Notes: generated from the sequence alone by a model not told the origin. 32,469 nucleotides of DNA from Verrucomicrobiota bacterium (GCA_026397755.1 JAPLUF010000336.1:1-32469), one strand, 5' to 3'; counted from the stretch's first letter, positions 17,388 through 32,469 are shown. Numbers and translations: made by a program.

Positions 17388-17416
17388 TTGACCCTTCCAT
17401 CCGCTTTCTTTAGCTA
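17388..17416 (+). promoter_or_regulatory. Possible sigma-70-like promoter for the pilus operon
   Basis: TTGACC at 17388-17393 matches the -35 box at five of six positions. It is followed after exactly 17 bp by TAGCTA (17411-17416), a poor -10 match. It lies 82 bp upstream of the pilM-like start in a 194-bp gap. It is weak evidence by itself, but this gap must hold the operon promoter unless readthrough from the HAD gene suffices. Confidence 0.3.
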
Positions 17417-17434
17417 CACCCCTACATCCGTGAT

Positions 17435-17471
17435 CGCTCGCCGCTAGGCATGCCTCGCTCGAGCGTTTTTT
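17435..17471 (+). terminator. Intrinsic terminator or attenuator in the leader of the pilus operon
   Basis: CGCTCG (17435-17440) pairs with CGAGCG (17460-17465). Inside lies a second stem AGGC-AT-GCCT (17446-17455). The outer stem is followed directly by TTTTTT (17466-17471). The right part is also a self-palindrome (CGCTCGAGCG, 17456-17465), offering an alternative fold. It either ends the TPR/HAD transcript or, if the promoter at 17388 is real, acts as an attenuator 27 bp before the pilM-like start codon. Confidence 0.55.
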
Positions 17472-17497
17472 AGTCCTTGGAGGGCTAGAATTTTCAC

Positions 17498-19420
17498 GTG
17501 AATCGCGCTCACAGCCAAATGCTAAAAGCCAAAACATTTCTTGGGATCGACTTCGGGGCTGGCACCCTGAAGATCGCCGAGTTCGAACCCGCCGACGGCG
17601 GCGGTTTGAAGCTCCTCCGCTTTGGCGTCCGCGCCCTCGGGCTCCCCGGCTCCCAAGATGCTGCCCGCGATGGAGTGCTCAAGCGCGCCCTGAGTGAGCT
17701 TCTGACCGAAGGTGGTTTTGTTTCCCGTCAAGCCAACATCTCTGCCCCGGGTTATCAGGTCTTCTCCAAATTCGTCAAACTGCCCCCGGTTGACGCCTCG
17801 AAGATTTCTCAGATCATCCAATACGAGGCCCAGCAGAACGTTCCCTTCCCGCTGACCGAAAGTGCTTGGGACCATCAGATTTTGGGCACCGCTGCCGACG
17901 GGGCGCGTGAGGTGCTTCTGGTGGCCATCAAGGCCGAGGTGGTTGAAAAGCTCTTTGCGGTGGGTGAATCGGTGGGTCTGAAGATGGAAGTGGTGGATGC
18001 GTCGATGGCCGCATTGGCCAACGCCTTCCGTTACAACTACGCAGATGTCGAGGGCTGCAGCCTCTTGATCGATATTGGAGCCAAGACCAGCAACGTCCTC
18101 CTCTTCGAGAAAAACAAGTTTTACGTCCGCACGGTCCCAGTCGGTGCCAACACCATTACTCAAGAATATTCGGTCGAATCCAAGGCCCCGTTCGCTGAAG
18201 CCGAGAAGTTCAAGATTTCCCAAGGTTTTGTCAGTTTAGGCGGTGCTTACGAGGAACCTGATGATGCGAAGGTGGCCGCTGTTTCTAAGGTCGCCCGGAA
18301 CGTCCTGACTCGCCTGCACATGCAGGTCAATCAGACGGTGCAGTTTTACCGGACCCAGCAAGGTGGATCGGCTCCTCAGCGGGTTTATCTGTGCGGTGGT
18401 GGCTCGGTGATGGCCTATTCCGCCGAGTTTTTTCAGGAAAAGCTCAACCTGCCGGTCGAATATTTCAGCCCGTTTCGCAACATTCAGATCGACCCGTCGG
18501 TGAATGTCGAAGAGCTAGAGAAAACCGCGTCTTTCTTCGGCGAAGCAGTGGGTCTTGGCTTGCGTAACATCGCCGATTGCCCGGTCGAACTGAACCTCTT
18601 ACCCAAGAGCTCCAAGGCACGGCAAGATTTCAATTCCAAAAAACCCTTCCTTGTGGCTGCCGCCTTCGTGGCCGCCGCCGGTGTTTGGGCTGCTGGATTC
18701 TTCTACAGCAAGGTGGCCGCGGTTCACCGAGAGGGTTTGGCCACAATTTCCGAAAAGGTCGAACCTCTGGCACGCGTAGAAACTTCGCTCAAGAGCGAAG
18801 AAGTGAAGCTTTCCGATGTTCATAAGCAAACCGACCAACTCGGAGCTTGGCTCTCTGAACGCGGTTATTGGCCCGACATCCTCACCGAGGTTCGTAGCAT
18901 CCTGAAGGCGACCGAGGCAGAAGCTTCCCAGAAACTGGGTGTGCCGGTAGGCATTTGGGTGGACACGTTCTACTCGACCGAACCTCCCAAGCCCGAGGTG
19001 GCTGCCGCTGAAGATGATGCTCCGAAGCCCATGCAAATGAGCAGAGAGCTCATGATGCGTTACGGACTCCTCCCGAAATCAGCAGTTGCCCCAGGTGAAG
19101 GTGGTGAAGCCGGCGTTGCGGCCGAAGGCGGTGCGGCCGGCGGTGGGGCTGCCGGCGGTGGGGCTGCCAAGCCTAAGTTAGCCGTCTCAACCAATGAGGT
19201 TGCCGTGTTGAACCTGAGCATACGGGCAGTCAATCTCCAGAAAGTGAAGCAAGAGGCCAATGGTCAGATCGCCTACGATCTCGAGAAAATGGCCAAGGCC
19301 AGTCCGCTATTCGATGCGTCGGAGACTCAGCTCTCCGGCAATCTTGAGCAGGTCGATGACACCACTGCGACCTTCACCTTCCCCCTGAAGCTCAAGCTCA
19401 AGCGTCCCATCAAGCTCTGA
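17498..19420 (+). CDS. pilM: PilM-PilN-like fusion protein of a type IV pilus/type II secretion machine (Amuc_1101-like)
   Basis: The 640-residue product starts with an actin-like PilM domain: phosphate-1 motif LGIDFGAGTLKIAEF (about 15-29), VKLPPVDASKI and QYEAQQNVPFPLTE (the classical PilM block), phosphate-2 LLIDIGAKTSNVLLF (near 188-202) and adenosine motif VYLCGGGSVMAY (near 296). PilM is normally about 350 residues and cytosolic. Here a TM helix (about 383-405) and a PilN-like coiled periplasmic domain follow in the same chain. A Gly/Ala-rich linker (about 530-558) and a C-terminal beta domain (LNLSIRAVNLQ... to LKLKLKRPIKL) complete it. It should nucleate the inner-membrane platform. 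GTG at 17498 has GGAGG at 17479-17483 (long spacing); ATG at 17519 is the alternative. The next gene starts 1 bp after its stop. Confidence 0.9.
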   Translation: MNRAHSQMLKAKTFLGIDFGAGTLKIAEFEPADGGGLKLLRFGVRALGLPGSQDAARDGVLKRALSELLTEGGFVSRQANISAPGYQVFSKFVKLPPVDASKISQIIQYEAQQNVPFPLTESAWDHQILGTAADGAREVLLVAIKAEVVEKLFAVGESVGLKMEVVDASMAALANAFRYNYADVEGCSLLIDIGAKTSNVLLFEKNKFYVRTVPVGANTITQEYSVESKAPFAEAEKFKISQGFVSLGGAYEEPDDAKVAAVSKVARNVLTRLHMQVNQTVQFYRTQQGGSAPQRVYLCGGGSVMAYSAEFFQEKLNLPVEYFSPFRNIQIDPSVNVEELEKTASFFGEAVGLGLRNIADCPVELNLLPKSSKARQDFNSKKPFLVAAAFVAAAGVWAAGFFYSKVAAVHREGLATISEKVEPLARVETSLKSEEVKLSDVHKQTDQLGAWLSERGYWPDILTEVRSILKATEAEASQKLGVPVGIWVDTFYSTEPPKPEVAAAEDDAPKPMQMSRELMMRYGLLPKSAVAPGEGGEAGVAAEGGAAGGGAAGGGAAKPKLAVSTNEVAVLNLSIRAVNLQKVKQEANGQIAYDLEKMAKASPLFDASETQLSGNLEQVDDTTATFTFPLKLKLKRPIKL

Positions 19421-19421
19421 T

Positions 19422-20446
19422 ATGTCTTGGATTAAGCGCAATTTAGCCTTCGTCATCAGCTTGACTGTGGCGGCAGCCCTGCTCATCGGCGGGGCGGTCT
19501 ACCTGTTCTCCACTCAGTCAGAGGCTGAGGCAGCCACCGGAGAACTCGAGGCCAAGAAAAACGAATACGATACGCTCGTCAAACGGGAGCCCTACCCGAA
19601 TGCCAAAAACATCGATTTAGCGAAAGCTGAGCAAGTCCGCTTCAACACTCTCAAGTCTCAGGCTCTGGCAACCTTTTCCCAATATCCCTCAGTAGGGGTT
19701 ATGGATGACGCATCCTTCAAGGCATTGCTGACCCGAACCATCAGCGATTTAGAACGTTCTGCCGAGCGAAAGGGTGTCAAGTTGCCCACCGGAGCCGATT
19801 CCACCTCTGGTTCGACTTCTGGTTCCGCATCCAAGTACAACTTCACCTTCAATACCCAGCGCCGAGAACTGCGTCTGCCTCCGAATACTCTCCAACCATT
19901 GGTATTGGCCGTGACAGACATACGTGAATTTACGGAAATTCTCTTTGCTTCGAAGATTCACTCGCTGCTGCACATCAAGCGATCGGCCATCGGCACCAAT
20001 GAGCTGGCCGGTTCTGGTGACATCCTCTCCAAGAAGGTCAGCACCAATACGGTGATTGGTGCCGGCATCTTTCCCTATGAGGTGCAATTCCAGTGCTTCA
20101 GTTCTGAATTGGGGGATGTGCTGACCCGGTTTGTGGGGCATCCAACGCGTACGTTCTCAAGACACTCAACGTAGACCGACCTTCCTCCGAAGGTTCTGAT
20201 TCTGCTGAGGCCGCCCCGGTCAATCCAGCGTCCAGCATGATGGCCATGATGAGCCGCTACGGACTGAGGCCGGGAATGGGGACCATGCCTCTCGCCCCGG
20301 CCAACCAGGCCGCCCCAGCGCCGTCGGGCAAGGTGGGTGATATCGTTCTCGAGCAGAAACCCATCAAGGTCACCCTAGGCTTTGAGGTGGTGCGTCTCGC
20401 GTCTCCCCCGACAGCAACTCAGGCTCCGAAGGCGACCCGCCGTTAG
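19422..20446 (+). CDS. PilO/Amuc_1100-like pilus-associated membrane protein, frame broken at 20135-20138
   Basis: The first frame (19422-20174) encodes a short cytosolic start, one TM helix (AFVISLTVAAALLIGGAVYLF, residues 9-29), a coiled coil and a mixed alpha/beta periplasmic domain, reaching ELGDVLTRFVG. It then runs into GHPTRTFSRHST and a stop. The -1 frame continues sensibly from 20138 (ASNAYVLKTLNVDRPSSEGSDSAE) through a Met/Pro/Ala-rich linker to a final beta strand pair (VGDIVLEQKPIKVTLGFEVVRL), ending at 20446. The joined protein is 341 residues. Length, topology, position between PilM-like and Amuc_1099-like genes, and the C-terminal pattern fit Amuc_1100 of Akkermansia, a PilO-like immunoactive membrane protein. 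One G missing from the GGGG run explains the break. Confidence 0.82.
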
Positions 20447-20465
20447 GCCGCAATTCTGGGAACCT

Positions 20466-21263
20466 ATGGAATTCATCAAGAAACATTACGAGAAGCTAGT
20501 TCTGGGAGTCGTCCTTCTGGCCGTCGCTGGTTTGGCGATTTCCCTCGTCTTCTCCGTGGCCCAGGTCCGATCGTATCTGGAGACCGCCTTGCAGCAGCTC
20601 GCAGGAGCCAAGCAGAAACCTCTGGTCCCAGAAAATCTCGAGACCAATTTGACGCAAACAGCCCTCACGCGAGTCTCGCAACGCACTCCGACGGTTTTGG
20701 CAGCTCAAGACCACTACACGTTCAACCCCATCACTTGGACTCGGGCGGCCAGTGGACGTTTGGAGCCCTCCAAGCCGCGTCCTAATACCGGGGCTTCCGG
20801 CTTGGTCTACGTTGCCCCCCACGATCTCGTTTTGGAAATTGCTTTTGAACAGGTTGCTGGAACTCCTGAGTCGCCTCGTTACCAGTTCTCCGCTCGCCGC
20901 GACTATGAAAAAGCGGTCAATGGTCGCCGCGCCATGGTGGAGTCCGTGGCCGTAGGATCGGAAAACAAAGACCAACTTTTCCGACTCCTTGAGGTTCAGG
21001 GTCCGAAGGAGTCTCCCACCAATTTTGTCTGCGAACTCATGGCCACCCGGGAGGCCTTTAACCTAACCAAAGGTAAGAATTTTCGCCGCACTCAAAGTTA
21101 CTCCGCCGACCTCCGTTACGAGGCTGATCGGCGTGATTTCCCACAGAAGCGTGTTGGTGAATCCATCAGTCTCTCCGGCGCGGTCTACAAGATTGTTGCC
21201 ATCGAGAAAGATGAACTAGTAGTGTCCGCTCCCAATTCCGTGCGTACCACCGTGGCGAGGTAA
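20466..21263 (+). CDS. Amuc_1099-like pilus-locus membrane protein (possible PilP analogue)
   Basis: The 265-residue product has one N-terminal TM helix (LVLGVVLLAVAGLAISLVF, about residues 11-29) and an otherwise periplasmic chain. The first part is helical (SYLETALQQLAGAKQKPLV), the middle Pro/Ser/Thr-rich. Two beta-rich segments follow, the last being VGESISLSGAVYKIVAIEKD, similar in feel to the small beta domains of PilP/GspC that touch the secretin. This assignment rests on position: it sits between the PilO-like gene (19 bp upstream) and the secretin gene (21 bp downstream), as Amuc_1099 does in Akkermansia. The family has no proven function. The frame is open further upstream, but MEFIKKHYEKL at 20466 gives the expected TM placement. 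Confidence 0.82.
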   Translation: MEFIKKHYEKLVLGVVLLAVAGLAISLVFSVAQVRSYLETALQQLAGAKQKPLVPENLETNLTQTALTRVSQRTPTVLAAQDHYTFNPITWTRAASGRLEPSKPRPNTGASGLVYVAPHDLVLEIAFEQVAGTPESPRYQFSARRDYEKAVNGRRAMVESVAVGSENKDQLFRLLEVQGPKESPTNFVCELMATREAFNLTKGKNFRRTQSYSADLRYEADRRDFPQKRVGESISLSGAVYKIVAIEKDELVVSAPNSVRTTVAR

Positions 21264-21284
21264 TTCCAATAATCGGCTCGTTGC

Positions 21285-24257
21285 ATGTCCATTTTAGTCC
21301 AAACCGTGAAGAACCCCATGACGAAAGTCTCGAAGATCCTGAGTCTCGTCGCACTCATTGCCGCGTTTGATTCCGTCTCCACCCGCGCCGTGGCGCAGGA
21401 AGCCGGTGAGATCGCCGTACGGCGCGAAGAAAAAGCCATTGTCTTGCGTAAGACGCTGGAGGCTGCCGCCACTGCTGCCAAGCAGGGCGATCTGACTTCC
21501 GCGGCCAAAGCCTACGAAGACGCATGGAACTTGACCGAGGAATTGGGCTCCAACGTCGAAAAGGAACGCGGCATCACGATTGAGGGATTTACTTCCAGTC
21601 GCTTGGCGTTGGCCTATGCCGCCGCCAAGGCGGGCGACTACAAGGAGGCGGACCTTCAGGTCAAGCGCTTGCTCAAGGTCGACCCCAACCACGTCAAGGC
21701 CAAGAACTTCAAGCGCGAGAACGATCAACGCTTGATGAACTTGGTCGGCCGGGTTCCCTCTGAAGAAGCCTTGAGCTACATTGGTCAAGACAAGACCAAC
21801 AAGTTAGCGGCCGCCATCGCTGTCCAAGACGGCAAGTTGGCCTTCGAGATGGGTAGCTTTGAACGCGCCGAGGTCAAACTTCAGGAAGCAATCAAGCTCG
21901 ACCCGGACAACGGTGCCGCTTACCAGTACCTGAACATTATCCGCGAGTCGAAGTACACCCGGGCCCATCGCGAGAAGCTCTTGACCGACAAGGATAAACT
22001 TTTGGAAGTGGAGCAGTATTGGGAAGAGCCAAAGTCCAAGTTGCCGATCTCCAATCCATTTGCCAGAACTAATCGGGTTCATACTGGATCCGGCCGCCAA
22101 GCCATTTATCACAAGCTGGATACCATCCGTATCAATGAAATCAAATTCGATGGCCTGCCGTTAGGTGAGGTCGTCAAGTATTTGGATGAGCAGACCCGCC
22201 TCCGAGATCCCGATAAGAAGGGCATCGCCTTTGTGGTCAACTCGCAAGCAGACCAACCTCTTTCAACCCCGGGTTTCGGTGGAATAGATCCCGCGACCGG
22301 TGCTGCCCAGCAATCCCAGCAAGCGGCTGAGCCCCTGGACCTCAACAACATTCCGGTGCGGATCAACCCGGCCTTGCGTGATTTGCGCTTGGCCGATGTC
22401 CTAGATATTATTACCAAAGTAGCCGAGAGGCCTCTAAAATATTCCGTGGAAGAATGGGGTATCATGTTCCGTCAGCGTCTTCCTGAAGCAACGCAGCTGC
22501 ATTCCCGTTGGTGGCGTGTTAATCCCAATACCTTCATGGAAGGTTTGGAAAGTGTTACCGGCTTTAGTCCCGCGGCGGTTTCCTCTCAAAGTGGTGGAGG
22601 TCAGGGTGGCGGCGGCGGCGGCGGCGGTGGCGGCGGTGGTGGCCAACAGGGTGGTGGTGGTGGTGTCTTCACGATCCCGCGCGTCGAAGTTAGTGGTGGC
22701 GGCGGTGGTGGTCAGGGTGGAGGTCAGGGTGGCGGCGGTGGTGGCGGTGGTATGGGCGGTGGTGGTATGGGTGGTTCTGGAATCACCGGTGTCACCCGCA
22801 CGAACCTCACGGCCAACATTCAAGTCGTTGTTCGTCAGTTCTTCATGGCCTGTGGTTTAAATTTCCCAATGACCATCATGCCCGGTGGCGCCGGTGGTAT
22901 GGGCGGCGGCATGGGTGGTATGGGCGCCGGCGGCATGGGCGGCATGGGCGGCGGCATGGGCATGGGCATGGGCGGCATGGGCGGCGGTATGGGCATGGGC
23001 GGCATGGGCGGCGGCATGGGCGGCGGCATGGGCAGTATCTATCCGGCCGGCGTCGCTCCTTGGGAGCAGGATCAGAAAGCCCTGTTCTTCAACGACCGCG
23101 TTGGCATCCTCTTCGTCCGTGCGACGCTCTCGGATCTGGATATCATCGAGAAGGCCATCCAAATTCTCAATGTCGCGCCCCCTCAAGTGGAGATCGAAGC
23201 CCGGTTTGCAGAAATCAACCAAACCGACAGCAAGGCCATCGGATTTGATTGGCTCTTGGGCAACGTCCTGATGGGAGGCGGTCGTCTCGGTCTCTCTGGC
23301 GGCAGTTCACCGAGCTACACAGGCCAACCCTCCTTGGCCAATCCGGGCTCTGAAAATCTCCCCGGTGGTCTATTCCCCGGAACCAGCCTCGCGGGATTGG
23401 CCCCTTCTGGAGCCAACGATCAGTTGGTTACCTCTGGGTTACGCAACACTACGGCTGACAGCGGCAAGATTCCTGAAGTCTTCAGCTTGACTGGAATTCT
23501 CACCGATCCTCAGTTCAAAGTGGTCATTCGCGCGCTCGAACAGCGCGATGGCGTAGACCTCCTCTCAGCGCCAAAAATCACGACGTTGAGCGGCCGCCAG
23601 GCCCACGTCGAGGTATCCGATGTCCGAACGATCGCCACCGGGTTGCAAAACCAAGGCGGTGGTGGTGGTGGTGGTGGGCAAGGGGGCGGCGGTGGAATCG
23701 GCGGCGGCGTCGGCAACAACGTCAGTCAGCCCCTCCTTGGTTTGATCACACCGACGTTGGCTACCCAGCCGTTCGGCCCGACGCTCGACGTCGTTCCTTA
23801 TGTGTCGGCAGATGACGAGACCATCCAAATGACCATCATCCCAACAATTATGGAGTTCATCGGCTATGATGATCCGGGTGCGTTTGTGCCGCAAGTTATC
23901 GGCCTAGGTTCCGGTAGCACGATTAGTCGTACGGCCCAGCTTCCGCTTCCGCACTTCCGGGTGCGCATGCTCACCACCAGCGCCATTGTCTGGGACGGCC
24001 AGACGGTTGCCTTGGGCGGCCTCATTGCCGAAGACAACGTCAAATCACGAGACAAGGTCCCCGTTCTGGGTGACATTCCGGTCTTGGGCCGTTTGTTCCG
24101 CAGCGAGAATTCACGGTCGGTCAAAAAGAACCTCATGATCTTTGTCACCGCCACCATCTTGGATGCTGGAGGCAAGCGCGTGCACGATCCTGAGAATCCG
24201 GGGTATGATCCCACCACGACACCGCCCAAATCGGCAGTCAACCGAACAGCGTTTTAA
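21285..24257 (+). CDS. Secretin (PilQ/GspD-type outer-membrane channel) with Gly/Met-rich repeats (Amuc_1098-like)
   Basis: The 990-residue precursor has a signal peptide (best read from Met12, ATG 21318: MTKVSKILSLVALIAAF...AVAQ). A TPR-like helical region lies near residues 50-240 (AAKQGDLTSAAKAYEDAW, AAKAGDYKEADLQVKRLLKVDPNH, AYQYLNIIRESKYTRA). An N-domain region follows (about 275-435, with LPLGEVVKYLDEQTR and LRDLRLADVLDIITK). The secretin core runs from VEIEARFAEI (about 635) through LSAPKITTLSGRQAHVEVSD to VALGGLI and VPVLGDIPVLGRLFR near the C-terminus. Secretins form the multimeric outer-membrane gate for pili or type II export. Three Gly-rich tracts interrupt it (about 435-498, 533-583 and 790-808). 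The product is longer than typical PilQ because of the TPR part and the tracts. Confidence 0.95.
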   Translation: MSILVQTVKNPMTKVSKILSLVALIAAFDSVSTRAVAQEAGEIAVRREEKAIVLRKTLEAAATAAKQGDLTSAAKAYEDAWNLTEELGSNVEKERGITIEGFTSSRLALAYAAAKAGDYKEADLQVKRLLKVDPNHVKAKNFKRENDQRLMNLVGRVPSEEALSYIGQDKTNKLAAAIAVQDGKLAFEMGSFERAEVKLQEAIKLDPDNGAAYQYLNIIRESKYTRAHREKLLTDKDKLLEVEQYWEEPKSKLPISNPFARTNRVHTGSGRQAIYHKLDTIRINEIKFDGLPLGEVVKYLDEQTRLRDPDKKGIAFVVNSQADQPLSTPGFGGIDPATGAAQQSQQAAEPLDLNNIPVRINPALRDLRLADVLDIITKVAERPLKYSVEEWGIMFRQRLPEATQLHSRWWRVNPNTFMEGLESVTGFSPAAVSSQSGGGQGGGGGGGGGGGGGQQGGGGGVFTIPRVEVSGGGGGGQGGGQGGGGGGGGMGGGGMGGSGITGVTRTNLTANIQVVVRQFFMACGLNFPMTIMPGGAGGMGGGMGGMGAGGMGGMGGGMGMGMGGMGGGMGMGGMGGGMGGGMGSIYPAGVAPWEQDQKALFFNDRVGILFVRATLSDLDIIEKAIQILNVAPPQVEIEARFAEINQTDSKAIGFDWLLGNVLMGGGRLGLSGGSSPSYTGQPSLANPGSENLPGGLFPGTSLAGLAPSGANDQLVTSGLRNTTADSGKIPEVFSLTGILTDPQFKVVIRALEQRDGVDLLSAPKITTLSGRQAHVEVSDVRTIATGLQNQGGGGGGGGQGGGGGIGGGVGNNVSQPLLGLITPTLATQPFGPTLDVVPYVSADDETIQMTIIPTIMEFIGYDDPGAFVPQVIGLGSGSTISRTAQLPLPHFRVRMLTTSAIVWDGQTVALGGLIAEDNVKSRDKVPVLGDIPVLGRLFRSENSRSVKKNLMIFVTATILDAGGKRVHDPENPGYDPTTTPPKSAVNRTAF
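22591..22780 (+). repeat. Gly-codon microsatellite tract 1 in the secretin gene
   Basis: About 190 bp consist mostly of GGT/GGC triplets with interspersed CAG, encoding poly-Gly with GGQGG units and a short spacer (VFTIPRVEVS). It lies before the secretin core, where the N-domains should connect. Low-complexity DNA like this can slip in replication. Confidence 0.9.
22883..23034 (+). repeat. GGM minisatellite tract 2 in the secretin gene
   Basis: About 150 bp of repeating GGCATGGGC/GGTATGGGC units encode roughly 50 residues of only Gly, Met and two or three Ala (GGMGGGMGGMG pattern). It sits between two N-domain-like blocks just before the secretin core. Its antisense frames give His/Ala repeats that are not genes. 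Confidence 0.9.
23654..23709 (+). repeat. Gly-codon microsatellite tract 3 inside the secretin core
   Basis: A 56-bp run of GGT/GGC triplets encodes GGGGGGGGQGGGGGIGGG. It falls after SDVRTIATGLQNQ and before PTLATQPFGPTLDVVPY, a position that in secretins corresponds to a loop of the beta-barrel/gate domain. Confidence 0.85.
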
Positions 24258-24331
24258 ACCAGCTGCAAAGTTATAGCCGGTGGAATGATTGAACTGCCTA
24301 GAAGTCCCTTAAGTCTTCTGGCAAACCATCC

Positions 24332-25867
24332 ATGAACCAAATTCGAAACTGCCGATCATCGTGGACGCTGATGGGGCTTGCAGCACTCATCGGTCTGTCC
24401 GGATCGAGCCTGGGGCAAGGGGTCCTCTCCCGAGCACCGCGACTGACAATTCAGGAAGTGGCTCCGGCTACCCTCGAATTGCTCGGATCCGAGGTGCGAA
24501 TCCTTCCCAACGGCACCTCGCCTTTGGGTCTGGTGGGCGACCAAGTCAATGCCTCCGTGGCCGCCAACGGATCGGTTGCTTTTGTGGTCTGGCAAGACAA
24601 TGCCATCGACGGTGATGGGCTCGGCATCGGATCCCGCGTCTACAACTTGCAGACCGGGTCGGCCAGTCCTCAGATCCTTCGGGTCAATCAACAGGCGCTC
24701 TTCAACCAGGAGAATCCCGTCGTTTTGTCCCTGGCTGATGGTTCTGCTGTGGTGGCTTGGCAATCCGGTAAGCCCGGAAAGCAATCCATTCATGCGCGTC
24801 GGCTCTCCCGAACGGGTGTGCCTCAGGGAGATGAATGGGTCGTGGCGGTTGCCGATTCGAATGGCAGCAATGAATCTCCGGCGATGACTGAAATCCCGGG
24901 CGGTGGATTCGCCATGGCCTGGCAATCGAGCGGCGCCGATGGGGTATCGTCTAAGATCCACTTACAACGCTTTAAGAGTTCCGGATCGCCCGTCAGTGAA
25001 CGCCGAGTCCTCGGAACTTCGGCCGCTGTGGATCGATCACCGACACTCTCGGCTCTGTCCAATGGCGACCTCGCCGTTGCGTGGGTTGCAGAGCAGGCGT
25101 CTGCTGATGTGCTCAATCTCGGTGGCCAAGCCACCCGTCGTGAGGCCAACTCCGATATTTTCGTTCAAATCATTCAGGCGGATGGAAATGCAGCTTCGCC
25201 AATTTGGATCAATGGCGCGGCGTCTCCCTGTGATCGTCCTTCTATGGCTACTTTGCCCAACGGCAAGCTGGTGATCGGCTGGTCCGAATTCGACACCGAC
25301 GCGAAGTCATCCTGGGACATCCGCTTGGCTGTTGTCTCTGGCACAGGCATCGTTCAGGGAACCCCGGTCACACTGAATGATTTCCGCGCATATGATCAAA
25401 CGGGCGTCCGTATCTCCTCCGGTTCAGAAGGCGCTTTGGCCGTCTGGTCCACGCGCGGTGCAGACGGATCCGGTCTGGGTGTTGCTGCCAAGTCCATTAC
25501 CGCTAATGGAATGATTGCGGGTGATGAGATGATCCTCAACCAAACCCGCAAGAATGATCAGTTTGCCCCCAATGTGGTATCGACGCCCTCGGGATATCGA
25601 GCCATCTGGAGCGATTTCGTTGGAATCAACACGGGTGTCGACCTCGCAGCCCGCGACCTCAAAAAGGTATCGATAGCCCAACGACAAAAGCTCAAACTTT
25701 CTTGGGAGACAACAGTCGGTGCTCAGTACCGTTTGGAGTCCTCCACCGATCTAGTTCGCTGGACCGAGGTTCAGTCCACCCAGACTGCGACGTCGACCAC
25801 CCAATCAGCGTCCATTGATGCTGGCGCTGCTGCCCAATCCTACTTCCGCGTCCAATCCGATCGCTGA
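24332..25867 (+). CDS. Secreted protein with seven propeller-like repeats and verrucomicrobial C-terminal module
   Basis: The 511-residue product has a signal peptide (about 1-29, ending SSLGQG). Seven similar units of about 50-60 residues can be aligned by eye around a P-x-V-x-x-L-x-x-G-x-x-x-V-x-W core: VAANGSVAFVVWQ, LADGSAVVAWQ, IPGGGFAMAWQ, LSNGDLAVAWV, LPNGKLVIGWS, GSEGALAVWS and TPSGYRAIWS, most followed by a DG turn and a strand with Arg. This pattern suggests a seven-bladed beta-propeller. The last 60 residues (KLSWETTVGAQYRLESSTDLVRWTEVQ... to YFRVQ) are the fibronectin-like terminal module common in secreted verrucomicrobial proteins. Function unknown; possibly ligand-binding. It starts 74 bp after the secretin and ends 2 bp before the next gene. 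Confidence 0.82.
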   Translation: MNQIRNCRSSWTLMGLAALIGLSGSSLGQGVLSRAPRLTIQEVAPATLELLGSEVRILPNGTSPLGLVGDQVNASVAANGSVAFVVWQDNAIDGDGLGIGSRVYNLQTGSASPQILRVNQQALFNQENPVVLSLADGSAVVAWQSGKPGKQSIHARRLSRTGVPQGDEWVVAVADSNGSNESPAMTEIPGGGFAMAWQSSGADGVSSKIHLQRFKSSGSPVSERRVLGTSAAVDRSPTLSALSNGDLAVAWVAEQASADVLNLGGQATRREANSDIFVQIIQADGNAASPIWINGAASPCDRPSMATLPNGKLVIGWSEFDTDAKSSWDIRLAVVSGTGIVQGTPVTLNDFRAYDQTGVRISSGSEGALAVWSTRGADGSGLGVAAKSITANGMIAGDEMILNQTRKNDQFAPNVVSTPSGYRAIWSDFVGINTGVDLAARDLKKVSIAQRQKLKLSWETTVGAQYRLESSTDLVRWTEVQSTQTATSTTQSASIDAGAAAQSYFRVQSDR

Positions 25868-25869
25868 CC

Positions 25870-27333
25870 ATGCGCACGACCCATTTCATCGCCTCAATCG
25901 TCGCCCTGCTGCTGCTCGGAAGTTTGCCGGGGCGCGCCTTCTCACTCCTGGGGCCTTTTTCTGGATGGCAGTCACCCGAATTGGGATACAATGTCCCGAA
26001 CGGAGGCAACGAATACGGAGGGCCACGCCTTCGAGGCGATGAATACCGGTTGAGCACACCTGTGGTGACCTATGGAATTGATGGGTCATTTCTCGAGTTC
26101 TTCGGCGTGGAAGGTGCACTAGCGGTAGACTCCGCATTTGCACTGTTCAACAATCTCACCAATGTCTCAGCGTTCAGTTCGACGCTGGAGGAGTTTCCGC
26201 TCAAGGCCGATGGCATTAACCCCAGCGCTAGGGCTTTGGGCTTGGTGGATCTAAAGACCCAGTTGTTGTCTCAAATCCTCGCCACTCTCGGCCTCACGTC
26301 ACCGGAGCGCTGGTGCTGGTCACTGCGCGCTCGTTATCTGGTTAATACCACTCCCAGCTACTCGGTGGTCAATTTCAACTACGATCCTATTTCTGGGCGT
26401 CCGTCGCGCTACATCAACGGATCCCTTTATTCCTACGTCATCCGCGAAATCTATAATGGTGACGGGACAGTAAGTTTCTATGATGCCCGGGAAGTTCCGG
26501 TCGATTCAGCCAACCCGATGGTCAGCTTGGCCTCGACCATTAGTGTTAATTTCCAAGAGACCAGCGATGACCGCGTTGTCCGGGCTCTCAGCCCCTCCGG
26601 TCGTTACTTCACCGGTTTGACCCGGGATGATGCGGGTGGTCTCCGTTATCTTTATCACCCCGCTAATCGGAACTACGAGGGGGCTCCGGCCGGCTCGTTC
26701 CGAGGCAGCCCCTCCTCTGGTGGTACCGCAGCCGCAGCCTCATCCACCTTGGAGTCGCCATGGACCATTGCCGGATCTACCGGGCAAGTAGGCACCACTG
26801 CCGTGGGAACCACAACCACAACCAGCAACACGCTGCAATTGGTGAATCTCGCGGTCCGAGCCGGTGTAGACCGAGTCCGTTTCGTCAAGGTCAACACGGA
26901 TCCCGTTCTGCGTCAAAATGCCCGTCAAGCGGCGGTCACCTATCCCGAGGTGGTCAGTTCCAACGGCGTGGTCATCCGTCAGGTGGTCAGCCGCATTTTG
27001 GCCCGGCCGGACATCCTCATCAGTGCTCGTGATTTGGGGGTCGCACTTTATGTTCCGGTCATTGGAGATCTGGTCCAACCCGGATTCGTCAATACAGGAG
27101 CTACTTTGGATGGTGCCGCTGAGGGCCCTGGAAACGTTGAACCTCAGTCCGGCTACACCTTCAGCAAGGTAGGCGTTTATTCTCTGAATCGCGGCAATAC
27201 CGATGAGCAAGATGGGCAACCCGGAAACATCTGGGGCTCTTTTGACGGAAGCACCAATGCGCCGGTGTTGTATCCGATCGGCAGCAAACTGTCAGACCTT
27301 GAAGCCGCGGCTCTCTACCTGAAGGGCAACTGA
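25870..27333 (+). CDS. Exported protein of unknown function, cotranscribed with the pilus locus
   Basis: I do not recognise an established family with certainty. The 487-residue product has a signal peptide (MRTTHFIASIVALLLLGSLPGRAF). An N-terminal region follows with GPFSGWQSPELGYN, LSTPVVTYGIDGSFLEFFGVEGALAVDSAFALFNNL and a helical PSARALGLVDLKTQLLSQILATLGL. A middle part contains paired Cys/Trp (RWCWSLR) and DDAGGLRYLYHP. A Ser/Thr/Ala-rich linker (about 280-320) leads to a beta-rich C-terminal part ending LYLKGN. The Y-x-x-D-x-S-F-x-x-x-F-G-x-x-G-x-x-A-V block recalls the substrate-side region of secreted metalloprotease-like proteins, but no HExxH zinc site is visible. It lies 2 bp after the propeller-like gene and 8 bp before the large surface-protein gene, so co-expression is likely. 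Confidence 0.78.
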   Translation: MRTTHFIASIVALLLLGSLPGRAFSLLGPFSGWQSPELGYNVPNGGNEYGGPRLRGDEYRLSTPVVTYGIDGSFLEFFGVEGALAVDSAFALFNNLTNVSAFSSTLEEFPLKADGINPSARALGLVDLKTQLLSQILATLGLTSPERWCWSLRARYLVNTTPSYSVVNFNYDPISGRPSRYINGSLYSYVIREIYNGDGTVSFYDAREVPVDSANPMVSLASTISVNFQETSDDRVVRALSPSGRYFTGLTRDDAGGLRYLYHPANRNYEGAPAGSFRGSPSSGGTAAAASSTLESPWTIAGSTGQVGTTAVGTTTTTSNTLQLVNLAVRAGVDRVRFVKVNTDPVLRQNARQAAVTYPEVVSSNGVVIRQVVSRILARPDILISARDLGVALYVPVIGDLVQPGFVNTGATLDGAAEGPGNVEPQSGYTFSKVGVYSLNRGNTDEQDGQPGNIWGSFDGSTNAPVLYPIGSKLSDLEAAALYLKGN

Positions 27334-27341
27334 ACCGTCCG

Positions 27342-29090
27342 ATGAATACCTTCAACCTCTCCAAACACCTCTCCAACATGGTGAGAAACCTTTGTGTCGC
27401 ATTTGCCTTCGGTTGGGTGGTGTCGGCGGGCGACTTTTACAACGGCGGAAACTATTCGGTCGATCGACCGATCGACGCTGTTTCCTTTGTTAATGCCGGC
27501 TCGTTCGCAGCCGACACCTTCGATATCTTTGCCACGCGGAACACGTTAACCTACACGAACTTCGGGACTATCCAAGCCACGTACGGCATGGATTTCCTCA
27601 CGGTGGACTCCAAAGGTCTCCGCCAACCTAGTGCGACTATCCTGAATGGTGATCGAGCGGTGATCGAGGGTCTTGGGACCGCTTCACTCCTCTTTGGCTA
27701 TCCTGAGGGCCATAATTACACCTTCGGTGATGGGGGTTATTTGTCTCTCAACGCGACGAATATTATTAATCGTGGTCGCATCTCTGTTTCGTTTTGGGGT
27801 GACCTTTCTGCCGCCGGCCAGCAGGTGGATCTCACCCGTTCCACGTTGACGACATTGAATCGAGAGAGGCCTGAGAACAGTCGGTTTTCGTTCCTCGACA
27901 ACAACATCAACGTCGCCTATACGCCCGGCGGCGTCCAAAACCTTTACTGGGGGTATTGGAATACAGATATCGACTTCGGTTCCTTTGCTAAGCCAAAGGC
28001 TGTCAAGACCACCTATCCCACTGCGACGAATCCGATCGTGGTCACCAATATTTTAGCGGACATAGACATCAGTTATTTGGCCTCAATAGACCGGGTGCCT
28101 GGTGATCCCACCGCCAATCCGGCGAATTGGAGGGGTGACAGCATCACGACGGCGGGTTTCCCACCGGTCCCCGCATTGACCTATGTCCAGACCAACCAAC
28201 TGACTCCGACAAATAATCGGATCAACGCAGTTTTTATTATCAACCGAAATCCAAACATTCTGGCTTCAGCCCGAGTGGACGGCACCCGCGGCCTCACCGT
28301 GACGTTGGGTTATCTGAACACCAACAACACCGAAGGATCGGTGGAATTTGAGAGTCTCAACATTGCCGAGAGTTTCACGACCGCACCGACCAATATTTAT
28401 GGATGGGATCAGCGGTCCCCTTCGACGGCCGTTCCCTACAATATCCGGGTTTCCCGAAACGTCGGGGTTCCGATCCCTCTCAATCGGGCCGACCGGTCTC
28501 ACATTGGAAACGAACTGGACCCTCTCAATCCGCTCTCCCGATCCAATTTATTGTCTAAGTATCTGAACGAATCTCGTTCCGGAGCCAACAGCGTCTTCAC
28601 TAAGGATTTGTTCACTACTGCCTATTTTGGACTCTTGACCAACGGCGTGGCCTACACCAATACCGTGTGGAACACGAATTACGTGGCTTATTCATTCGGC
28701 ATTACTTCATTGCCGTCCCAGATTCCCAACCCGACCAACAGTTCATTTGGTAGGGTTCTGGGTGCCAATGGAGGTCGGTACTCGTTCTTTAATTCCCAGA
28801 CTCCGTTTGCTTACGCCACGAATCTGGCCGGACGGGTTCGTGTCAAGGCCGACAATCTCAAACTCGAAGACGCTCGCATCCGGGCTCATGGTATCGTAAA
28901 CCTCCAGGCGAAGCATGTAACGTCCTCGGCTAACACCAGCATCGCGGCTCCCTATGCCAATTACGATTTGGGATCCACCAATGGAACTTTGGTCTACCGA
29001 GGATTTAGCCCTGTTGGGCAACCGAATCTGACCGGTACCATCAAGTTGATCCGGCCGCTGGAACCGGAACCGGTACTATCGCGACGCTAG
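27342..29090 (+). CDS. Large secreted haemagglutinin-like surface protein, N-terminal half (frame broken near 29055)
   Basis: This frame encodes 582 residues: a basic start and hydrophobic stretch (MVRNLCVAFAFGWVVSAG) as signal peptide, then a long Asn/Thr/Ser/Gly-rich beta chain. Recurring N-x-G-x-(I/F) turns (FVNAGSFA, YTNFGTIQ, IINRGRIS) are typical of right-handed beta-helix, filamentous-haemagglutinin-like proteins. Near the end NLTGTIKLIRP switches to an Arg-rich nonsense tail (LEPEPVLSRR) and stops. The neighbouring frame carries on with GTGTGTIATLVGDTHFRVMIIDAD, so one missing base around 29055-29060 separates this from the downstream half. Joined, the protein is about 1073 residues. 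Likely a cell-surface or released adhesin-type protein; substrate unknown. Confidence 0.78.
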   Translation: MNTFNLSKHLSNMVRNLCVAFAFGWVVSAGDFYNGGNYSVDRPIDAVSFVNAGSFAADTFDIFATRNTLTYTNFGTIQATYGMDFLTVDSKGLRQPSATILNGDRAVIEGLGTASLLFGYPEGHNYTFGDGGYLSLNATNIINRGRISVSFWGDLSAAGQQVDLTRSTLTTLNRERPENSRFSFLDNNINVAYTPGGVQNLYWGYWNTDIDFGSFAKPKAVKTTYPTATNPIVVTNILADIDISYLASIDRVPGDPTANPANWRGDSITTAGFPPVPALTYVQTNQLTPTNNRINAVFIINRNPNILASARVDGTRGLTVTLGYLNTNNTEGSVEFESLNIAESFTTAPTNIYGWDQRSPSTAVPYNIRVSRNVGVPIPLNRADRSHIGNELDPLNPLSRSNLLSKYLNESRSGANSVFTKDLFTTAYFGLLTNGVAYTNTVWNTNYVAYSFGITSLPSQIPNPTNSSFGRVLGANGGRYSFFNSQTPFAYATNLAGRVRVKADNLKLEDARIRAHGIVNLQAKHVTSSANTSIAAPYANYDLGSTNGTLVYRGFSPVGQPNLTGTIKLIRPLEPEPVLSRR

Positions 29091-30562
29091 TGGGTGATAC
29101 CCATTTCCGTGTGATGATTATCGATGCAGACATCGATCCGTTGAAAACCACGGGCGAATTGGTTGGTTTGAAGCTTCGTGCGACCAATCTGACCACGGTG
29201 GATCCTATCTTGTACCAAGTGCCCGATGTGGATGCGCTTCCGACGACCTACCCCGATGGATTCTCGGGAGCTTCATCGATCTCAGGCAACGAGCAGGTGG
29301 CTCCCGTCACTGAGAACTGGATCAACCAAGGCAGCTTTGAATTGATCGGACCCCTTGGGGTCTCCTCCCGAACCTTCCCGATGTTAAAGACTCTTTCCAA
29401 TAGTTCCGACATCCTGGGTGAGCGCGTGGCCCTTGGGGTGGGACAGACCACGGCCTTGAGTTACATCACCAACACCGGGTCCATCATCTCGTCCGGTTAC
29501 TTGGGCTTGGGTGCTTCCATTCTCCACCATGCTGGGCGTATCGAGGGCGGCAACGTCATCGACCTGGCGGCGAATTCGCTCGTGTTGGCCGGAACCAACA
29601 GCATCGTGACCGGTGGTGGTTTAAATATCACGGCCAAGAATTTGGACGCCAGTGCTGGTGGAGCCATAAGCACCCCGAATTTGATCACCTTGAACGTGAG
29701 CGATAAATTCTTGGCCCCCGCGGGTAAAGTGCTCGCTCTGGCCGCTGCCGGAGTAACGTTGAAGGGTAATGTAAGCTCTAACGACCTCAGCGGCGTGAGC
29801 GTTTCTGTGAGTGCCGGTCGCTTCCAGACAGCCTTCGTAGACTGGTCGGGTGTTAATCGTGGGACTGAGGCAGCAGGCTTCTTGAACAATTCGGCGATCG
29901 CCGCGCTGGTGCTGACCATTGGCGAATATGGCCGGGCTGATATTCGTGCTTCCGGATCGGGCGATCGAGCCCTGTATACCAAGCGTTTGGAGTTGAATGG
30001 CGATTTCAGCCAGTTCATCAACATCACCAACAAGACGTTCGATGCCGAGGGCTTGGCATCGGCTCTGAGCATCGATAGCAACACACGCCTCTACTTCAGC
30101 ATCGTTTCGGTCAATGGCATTGAACTCGCCGGACCGGTTCTCGATGGCGCACTCGGTGGCCGTTTGCGTCTGGTGCGTATTAGTGGAGCCAATGGCGGAC
30201 CGATCTCGTTGGCCGTGGGCAATGGCTACGTGGTCGAAGCTTCATGGGCGGTTCGGTACTCTGTTTCGCTCGATTCCGATGGCGATGGCCTAGTCAACGC
30301 CTTGGATGCCACCCCATTTTCTGGGGCAGTGGTGACCACCAAGGCCATTGAGATTCAGGGTAAGCCTTATTTGGAGATCTCTTGGGACGCAGCGGCCAAT
30401 ACCGAGTATCAAATTCTGGCGCAGGAGCCTGCAGTGGGTTCGACTTGGACCGGCTTGAGTCGCATGTCCAATACTTCAGTATCTTCAAAGGTGCTGAAGT
30501 TCTATGATCCGCTCGATCAGGGGACCGGGGCCAAGGCCTATCGCATCCTCTACAAGCCCTGA
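29090..30562 (+). CDS. Large secreted haemagglutinin-like surface protein, C-terminal half
   Basis: This part has no signal peptide of its own. Its reading frame is already open before the nominal GTG at 29090 (from about 29060), showing that it continues the previous gene. It holds more beta-helix-like repeats (WINQGSFE, ITNTGSIISSG, HHAGRIEGGN, LNITAKNLDAS). Near residue 395 is a Ca-binding thrombospondin-3-like motif, DSDGDGLVNALDATP. A C-terminal module follows (LEISWDAAANTEYQILAQ ... TWTGL ... KAYRILYKP) akin to the end of the protein at 24332-25867. Such terminal modules often end exported proteins in this phylum and may mark them for sorting. A strong terminator follows 40 bp after the stop. 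Confidence 0.8.
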   Translation: MGDTHFRVMIIDADIDPLKTTGELVGLKLRATNLTTVDPILYQVPDVDALPTTYPDGFSGASSISGNEQVAPVTENWINQGSFELIGPLGVSSRTFPMLKTLSNSSDILGERVALGVGQTTALSYITNTGSIISSGYLGLGASILHHAGRIEGGNVIDLAANSLVLAGTNSIVTGGGLNITAKNLDASAGGAISTPNLITLNVSDKFLAPAGKVLALAAAGVTLKGNVSSNDLSGVSVSVSAGRFQTAFVDWSGVNRGTEAAGFLNNSAIAALVLTIGEYGRADIRASGSGDRALYTKRLELNGDFSQFINITNKTFDAEGLASALSIDSNTRLYFSIVSVNGIELAGPVLDGALGGRLRLVRISGANGGPISLAVGNGYVVEASWAVRYSVSLDSDGDGLVNALDATPFSGAVVTTKAIEIQGKPYLEISWDAAANTEYQILAQEPAVGSTWTGLSRMSNTSVSSKVLKFYDPLDQGTGAKAYRILYKP

Positions 30563-30602
30563 ACGGCACACTTCCTTCGGACTCGATTCCGATCGTTTTC
30601 GG

Positions 30603-30639
30603 GCGCTGGAGAATTCAAGTTCTCCAGCGCTCTTTTGTT
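30603..30639 (+). terminator. Rho-independent terminator at the end of the pilus/surface-protein operon
   Basis: GCGCTGGAGAA (30603-30613) pairs perfectly over 11 bp with TTCTCCAGCGC (30620-30630) around a 6-nt loop. It is followed by TCTTTTGTT (30631-30639). This is the clearest intrinsic terminator in the window. It closes the transcript that appears to start before pilM, and ends only 4 bp before the coaE start codon. Confidence 0.9.
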
Positions 30640-30643
30640 AAAC

Positions 30644-31246
30644 ATGATCACCATGGGACTCACCGGAGGAATTGGGGCAGGGAAATCCGAGGCGTCCGAA
30701 TACCTGAAGCGGCTCGATATTCCTATCTTGGACACCGATGTCGTGGCCCGGGAACTGGTGACACCCGGCCAACCTGCCTTGGATGAGATTGTTGCCGCTT
30801 TTGGGTCGGATATTCTCGATTCCCAAGGCCTTCTGGATCGCAGCGCTTTGGGTCAGAAGGTCTTTGGAGACAGCGCAGCCCGTCAGCGGTTGGAGGCCAT
30901 TTTGCATCCCCGGATTTATGAGGGATGGACCGCCTGGACCCGCGAACAATCGCTTCAAGATCGGCGCCTCTGCGCGGTGGTGATCCCATTGCTCTATGAA
31001 AAAGGATATGATTCCCACTTTCAGGTGACTATGGCCTTGGGCTGCACCCCGCAAACGCAGCGTCAACGCCTTCACCAGCGTCAATGGACCGATCAAATGA
31101 TTGACCAGCGCTTGGCGGCTCAGTGGCCTATGTCGGAGAAACTACAGCGTGCCAACTATTGCGTTTGGAGCGAAGGCCAACGCGAGGCCCTCCACCAACA
31201 AATTGAAGTCGTGCTGAAGTCGGTGGGATATCCGTGGTCCCCCTGA
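30644..31246 (+). CDS. coaE: Dephospho-CoA kinase
   Basis: CoaE phosphorylates the 3'-hydroxyl of dephospho-CoA, the last step of coenzyme A synthesis, in the cytosol. The 200-residue product has the P-loop LTGGIGAGKSEAS near the N-terminus, DTDVVARELVTPGQPALDEIVAAFG (substrate-binding block), RSALGQKVFGD, LEAILHPRI and VVIPLLYEKG, all in family order and at family length. ATG 30644 (MITMGLTGG) or ATG 30653 (MGLTGG) is the start; a TTG at 30635 lies in the terminator T-tract and is unlikely. Because a strong terminator ends 4 bp upstream, coaE must have its own promoter inside or after that hairpin, or rely on readthrough. Confidence 0.95.
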   Translation: MITMGLTGGIGAGKSEASEYLKRLDIPILDTDVVARELVTPGQPALDEIVAAFGSDILDSQGLLDRSALGQKVFGDSAARQRLEAILHPRIYEGWTAWTREQSLQDRRLCAVVIPLLYEKGYDSHFQVTMALGCTPQTQRQRLHQRQWTDQMIDQRLAAQWPMSEKLQRANYCVWSEGQREALHQQIEVVLKSVGYPWSP

Positions 31247-32329: not shown

Positions 32330-32469
32330 ATAGGGGTAGGGATGGCCGTTGCCGACCACCCCTCCCTCCGAACCGGACTGGCGGATTTCCCGCATCCGGC
32401 TCTCCAGTTGGTGAGTCACCCGCTTGCGGCGGGACTGGTACGTTTGGCTAAGGCTAAGGCGTATAGAGA
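32330..32469 (-). mobile_element. Group II intron, 3' end (domains V and VI), rest beyond window
   Basis: On the minus strand 32402-32370 reads as domain V: 33 nt beginning GAGCCGGAT and ending TCCGGTTC. The AGC catalytic triad is near the 5' side, a lower stem is GAGCCGGA/TCCGGTTC, a two-base bulge (CA) follows, and an upper stem GCGG/CCGC is capped by GAAA. Directly after it (32369-32330) is domain VI: GGG-A, then GGGGTGGTCG paired with CGGCCATCCC around a GCAA tetraloop, with an unpaired A at 32337. That is the branch point, 7 nt before a 3' end in AT (the AY rule), placing the 3' splice site at 32330/32329. Everything upstream (domains I-IV, encoded protein) lies past the window edge. Confidence 0.85.
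32416..32469 (-). CDS. Possible C-terminal tail of the group II intron-encoded protein (partial)
   Basis: On the minus strand one frame is open from the window edge to a TGA at 32416-32418, giving 17 residues that end LAKRTSPAASG. It stops 14 nt before domain V, where the intron-encoded reverse transcriptase/maturase usually ends in domain IV. The stretch is far too short to identify by itself. The CCCGC-CGCAA-GCGGG hairpin within it may equally be non-coding domain IV. Confidence 0.25.
   Translation of the reverse strand, partial: SLYALALAKRTSPAASG

Follow-up and report, generated by a model that had tools for sequence, protein, structure and literature searches.

Akkermansia, a gut bacterium, has a pilus-type envelope machine that is tied to mucin use. 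The MUL2 genes of this machine are Amuc_1099-1102, and its PilQ secretin is Amuc_1098. PilQ has been found to be an abundant outer-membrane protein (PMC4960237), and envelope fractions show an enrichment of the Amuc_1098-1102 cluster (PMC5332112). Periplasmic glycan storage has been reported to require mul genes (PMC13174399), and coaE and rho have been reported as neighbours of the locus in Akkermansiaceae (PMC13174399).

The stretch of DNA analysed here (the window, 32,469 nt) is contig C310 of a 3.79-Mb Verrucomicrobiota genome that is 80.6% complete. Seven genes lie on its plus strand between positions 17498 and 30562, namely PilM, PilO-like, PilP-like and secretin genes followed by three genes designated A, B and C. 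Re-reading of the sequence gave gaps of 1, 19, 21, 74, 2 and 8 bp from PilM through C, the same values as in the earlier note, the 19-bp gap lying between 20446 and 20466. Judged from its sequence, the locus represents the Akkermansia pilus/MUL2 locus in its Limisphaerales form, and it appears to have gained a co-inherited module of exported proteins.

The core genes and their surroundings

The PilM-like gene (17498-19420, plus strand), a relative of Amuc_1101/MUL2B, matches PF11104 (E=8e-32) and, below the cut-off of that model, NF045709 (E=6e-145). An ATG at 17519 is a possible alternative start. The PilO-like gene (19422-20446, plus strand) is a relative of Amuc_1100 and matches NF038287 (E=2e-12). 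The next gene (20466-21263, plus strand) occupies the PilP position, which is conserved, and its assignment as a relative of Amuc_1099 leans on this position because the match to NF042425 is weak alone (E=0.0017). It is followed by a TPR-containing secretin gene (21285-24257, plus strand) related to Amuc_1098 and PilQ, with matches to PF00263 (E=7e-30) and NF042912 (E=3e-108). The order PilM, Amuc_1100, Amuc_1099, secretin known from Akkermansia had been recognised in these four genes previously, and NCBIfam models match each of them. All four proteins score under the equivalog cut-offs and are thus relatives, not equivalogs.

As in Akkermansia, the four genes are adjacent and in the same order, and coaE is located nearby downstream. 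The latter gene, for dephospho-CoA kinase (30644-31246, plus strand; PF01121, E=5e-46), is a flanking marker and lies outside the machine. The order locus differs by the insertion of A-B-C before coaE. Furthermore, the Akkermansia cluster has the Amuc_1102/MUL2A pilin gene before PilM, whereas none is recognisable in the order, where the Amuc_1102 model matched 0/116 genomes. Outside the order the model does match loci, although certain diverged upstream genes escape it there as well; the result therefore indicates that there is no recognisable relative.

The PilM and secretin families, together with a motor cluster in relatives (see below), are shared with the type IVa pilus machine. However, the machine here is split over two loci, the window has no separate PilN gene, Amuc_1100/1099-like proteins take the places of PilO and PilP, and the exported trio follows the secretin. 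In the type II secretion system GspE/F and pseudopilins accompany the secretin, and the locus here is without these. The genome of the window contains four further secretin genes (contigs C176, C177, C211 and C352), and the copy on C176 sits inside a 3971-codon open frame. A match to a group II intron (RF00029) was found on the minus strand near the window end (32330-32404).

Two of the seven genes are broken in the assembly. The PilO-like reading frame starting at 19422 stops at 20174 because a single G, present in five relatives, is missing near 20138; hence the single open frame previously read for the Amuc_1100-like gene does not hold for this sequence. Gene C (27342-30562, plus strand) is divided into two ORFs (27342-29090 and 29090-30562) by the lack of 64 bp near 29045, as compared with a locus (L106) that is 98% identical to the window in B and in which the C frame stays open. 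The '1073-residue' product given in the earlier note is accordingly not a single frame, that reading having passed through both breaks silently. In relatives PilO and C are single ORFs, save for one locus (L041) in which C is broken as in the window, with runs of N nearby. The breaks at 20138 and 29045 are either assembly errors or real mutations. A naturally split gene C is unsupported, as the gene is intact in relatives, including the 98% identical one.

The leader (17388-17471, plus strand) includes a promoter-like pair, TTGACC (17388-17393) and TAGCTA (17411-17416), separated by a 17-nt spacer, and an attenuator-like hairpin (17435-17465) followed by T6. Both are conserved in eight aligned sequences, but the hairpin folds no better than shuffled sequences (z -0.6 to -0.95), which makes its energy unexceptional. 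A consensus promoter scan did not pick up the TTGACC-17-TAGCTA pair. The sequence of the 74-bp gap between the secretin gene and A is conserved in close relatives, and a non-coding block in this gap, GGTGGAATGATTGAACTG (24276-24299), is conserved in eight of them. A terminator scan of the gap found none. The strong terminator placed earlier at 30603-30639 was confirmed 3' of C as an intrinsic terminator (30601-30632, plus strand) with a 14-pair stem (-25.5 kcal/mol, z -7.1), and it is kept in relatives. A single transcript over the whole locus is plausible in this genus.

Predicted products of A, B and C

All three proteins of the trio look exported, with signal peptides judged by eye, and none of them belongs to a Pfam or NCBIfam family. 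Gene A (24332-25867, plus strand) was characterised from its translation, its family consensus and a C-terminal module as encoding an exported repeat protein. On inspection by eye, the consensus shows about seven repeats that contain Trp, in line with the seven repeats originally described; the propeller-like shape that had been attached to them is a possibility. PilY1-type pilus tip adhesins resemble A in that they are large exported proteins, possibly propeller-like, encoded with pilus genes. A differs from these adhesins by the absence of a PilY1 or vWA family match and in being accompanied by B and C, not by minor pilins.

Gene B (25870-27333, plus strand) was delineated by profile searches and structure models, and its exported product represents a family that extends across the order and has no entry in Pfam. 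For C the family consensus, read alongside the two ORFs in the window, indicates a large exported repeat-rich protein, long and with a DSDGDG motif. The description 'haemagglutinin-like' found no support in databases, although the repeat texture of C fits it.

A and C have a common C-terminal module (25658-25864 and 30338-30559 in the window), which is absent from B. It has no confident Pfam match in A or C. Many large frames across the phylum contain the module, with dozens of copies in some genomes, and the idea that it is a signal used by this machine alone was thus rejected.

The N-domain of B was modelled confidently by AlphaFold2 (pLDDT 88, pTM 0.83). Comparison of this model with solved structures gave nothing convincing, with no Z of 2 or more, and a viral structure library yielded nothing convincing. 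A modelled domain that lacks a structural match is not by itself proof of a new fold. A literature search found no paper describing the trio or its function.

Synteny and distribution of the trio

A B profile search of a genome collection found 150 loci, 80 of which were kept. The record titles were Verrucomicrobia, Pedosphaera, Limisphaerales or 'bacterium' MAGs, and a few were labelled Akkermansia muciniphila. The PilM, PilO, PilP, secretin and A genes precede B in the same order and on the same strand in 43/43 distinct contigs that extend 9.5 kb or more upstream, and C comes after B in 61 of the 62 contigs with room downstream. A was found in 62 of the 67 contigs having 2.6 kb upstream; the five contigs without it all have less than 9.5 kb upstream. 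Forty larger loci that were fetched directly have the same arrangement, truncated or diverged ones excepted. The PilM-to-C synteny is far beyond chance, and the trio is tied to the secretin locus, as the earlier note had it, instead of occurring mostly away from secretin genes. The sole exceptions observed are isolated paralogues of B, carried by a minority of the genomes. Those found off the pilus locus (L187, L188, L189, L190, L191 and L193) have unrelated neighbours where checked.

In many order loci coaE follows C, and in one genome a large subtilase gene (PF00082; L043:7911-11702) is located between the two. A 5'-3' exonuclease gene (PF02739/PF01367) separates the secretin gene and A in many order relatives, L047, L054, L056 and L070 being examples. 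One locus (L209, genome G030) has opposite-strand genes after PilM in place of PilO and is seemingly broken up.

B is present in 125 of the 146 genomes of the Limisphaerales/Pedosphaerales order and had no match outside the order in a 338-genome sample of the phylum. Full-length A and C were found solely in order genomes among the 24 genomes tested. A PilM match was obtained in 325 of the 338 genomes, a count that takes in some weak hits. Thus, the core is phylum-wide, whereas the trio is order-wide. Loci read outside the order have coaE and rho downstream of the secretin gene with no trio between; in some of them the secretin gene and coaE are separated by an exonuclease gene and a Dpy19-like one (the exonuclease was seen there in L221 and L222). 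In order loci, A-B-C lies between the secretin gene, or the secretin and exonuclease genes, and coaE.

One order member of 95% completeness (G034) has the arrangement PilM-PilO-PilP-secretin-exonuclease-coaE, from which the trio is absent, and neither B nor C nor a full-length A was found elsewhere in its genome. The other order genomes without B were not accepted as evidence against linkage, since several of their contigs end before the trio; G034 is truly trio-less.

Pairwise distances at 25 loci correlate at 0.69-0.75 within A/B/C and at 0.67-0.82 within the core, as compared with lower values of 0.34-0.68 between trio and core. Because the correlations within modules exceed those between them, the trio seems to be inherited jointly as a module added to the machine and not to be a core part. 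These sequence data favour an accessory role over a core one, the trio forming an evolutionary module of its own that would be dispensable in G034.

Motors and interpretation of the locus

No PilB, PilT or PilC motor genes are present in the window, and no motor or pseudopilin gene lies beside the secretin in the fetched loci as labelled. The suggestion that the motor is encoded elsewhere gained support from relatives, seven of which have a separate cluster with two PilB genes, PilT and PilC. In the one relative that was scanned in detail (G118), which is of the same genus, the PilB-PilT-PilB-PilC cluster runs on into pilin-type genes that carry N-terminal methylation motifs and weakly match 'Verru_Chthon cassette' families. 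Other secretins and T2SS-like motors are located elsewhere. Given the separate motor/pilin cluster in relatives, the whole is likely a machine of the type IV pilus type that includes a retraction ATPase, in which the motor locus would be paired with the PilM-secretin locus.

The best explanation of these data, to which we assign a probability of about 0.55, is that A-B-C forms a Sec-exported surface binding module near the pilus or secretin of this machine. The separate PilB-PilT-PilB-PilC-pilin cluster would supply the motors and pilins that drive a filament through the secretin. A, B and C would be exported by Sec and assembled on the outer face of the cell close to the pilus or secretin, where the module may serve in attachment or substrate capture. 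We infer in this way that the trio lies at the surface, touches the machine physically, shares a transcript with it and has a binding role. The last is a best guess by analogy with Akkermansia, made because the trio looks exported, is rich in repeats and belongs to no recognisable enzyme family. Several findings tell against this explanation. Neither core nor trio strictly needs the other, since the trio is missing from the core locus of G034 and isolated copies of B occur off the locus in a few genomes. The exonuclease gene often intervenes between the secretin gene and A, the trio-core correlations are the lower ones, and in the window's own genome, 80.6% complete, only other motor paralogues were found and no such motor cluster.

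It is unlikely that the trio is cargo, i.e. substrates that leave through the secretin in the manner of a type II secretion system. A, B and C do look exported and are encoded behind a secretin gene, and the recurring C-terminal module of A and C could be a common export or anchoring signal. However, that module is also found in lineages without the trio and is not part of B, and the core matches PilM and Amuc_1098-1101, not a full Gsp set. The genome also has other secretins, one of which (C211) shares its contig with a GspE-type ATPase.

Equally doubtful is an independent surface operon that is adjacent to the pilus genes merely through stability of the locus. The neighbouring coaE, exonuclease and rho genes are likewise conserved without a functional link, and the frequent placement of the exonuclease between the modules, the loss of the trio alone in G034 and its weaker correlation with the core agree with such independence. 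On the other hand, the adjacency is order-wide and in a single orientation in more than 60 contigs, and the scan picked up no terminator in the 74-bp gap, the strong one lying after C.

Verrucomicrobiota are prominent polysaccharide degraders. A more far-reaching proposal, which we regard as tentative and rather improbable, is that a pilus/secretin machine serves for import, with A-B-C as its outer receptor, and that Limisphaerales would thereby bring in large polysaccharides through a PilQ-type channel. The order-specific surface complex would then stand in for the MUL2A pilin, and B would represent a new protein family whose fold may also be new.

Finally, a trio that processes or binds protein substrates, with B as an inactive matrix metalloproteinase relative, is very improbable: the best matches of the full-length, lower-confidence model of B are mostly matrix metalloproteinases, though weak (Z about 5), but the better N-domain model (pLDDT 88) matches none, the HExxH zinc motif occurs in 0/50 B sequences and no profile match was found in Pfam or among PDB sequences, and B was accordingly rejected as a zinc metalloprotease or degenerate matrixin.

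A pilus-type machine of this kind is already known from Akkermansia, and no paper retrieved describes what the three extra exported families behind the secretin gene do. Three uncharacterised, order-restricted exported families can be named as candidate surface parts of a phylum-wide pilus machine. The locus presents an order-wide change of accessory genes within a phylum-wide pilus locus, for which G034 provides a natural trio-less locus for comparison.
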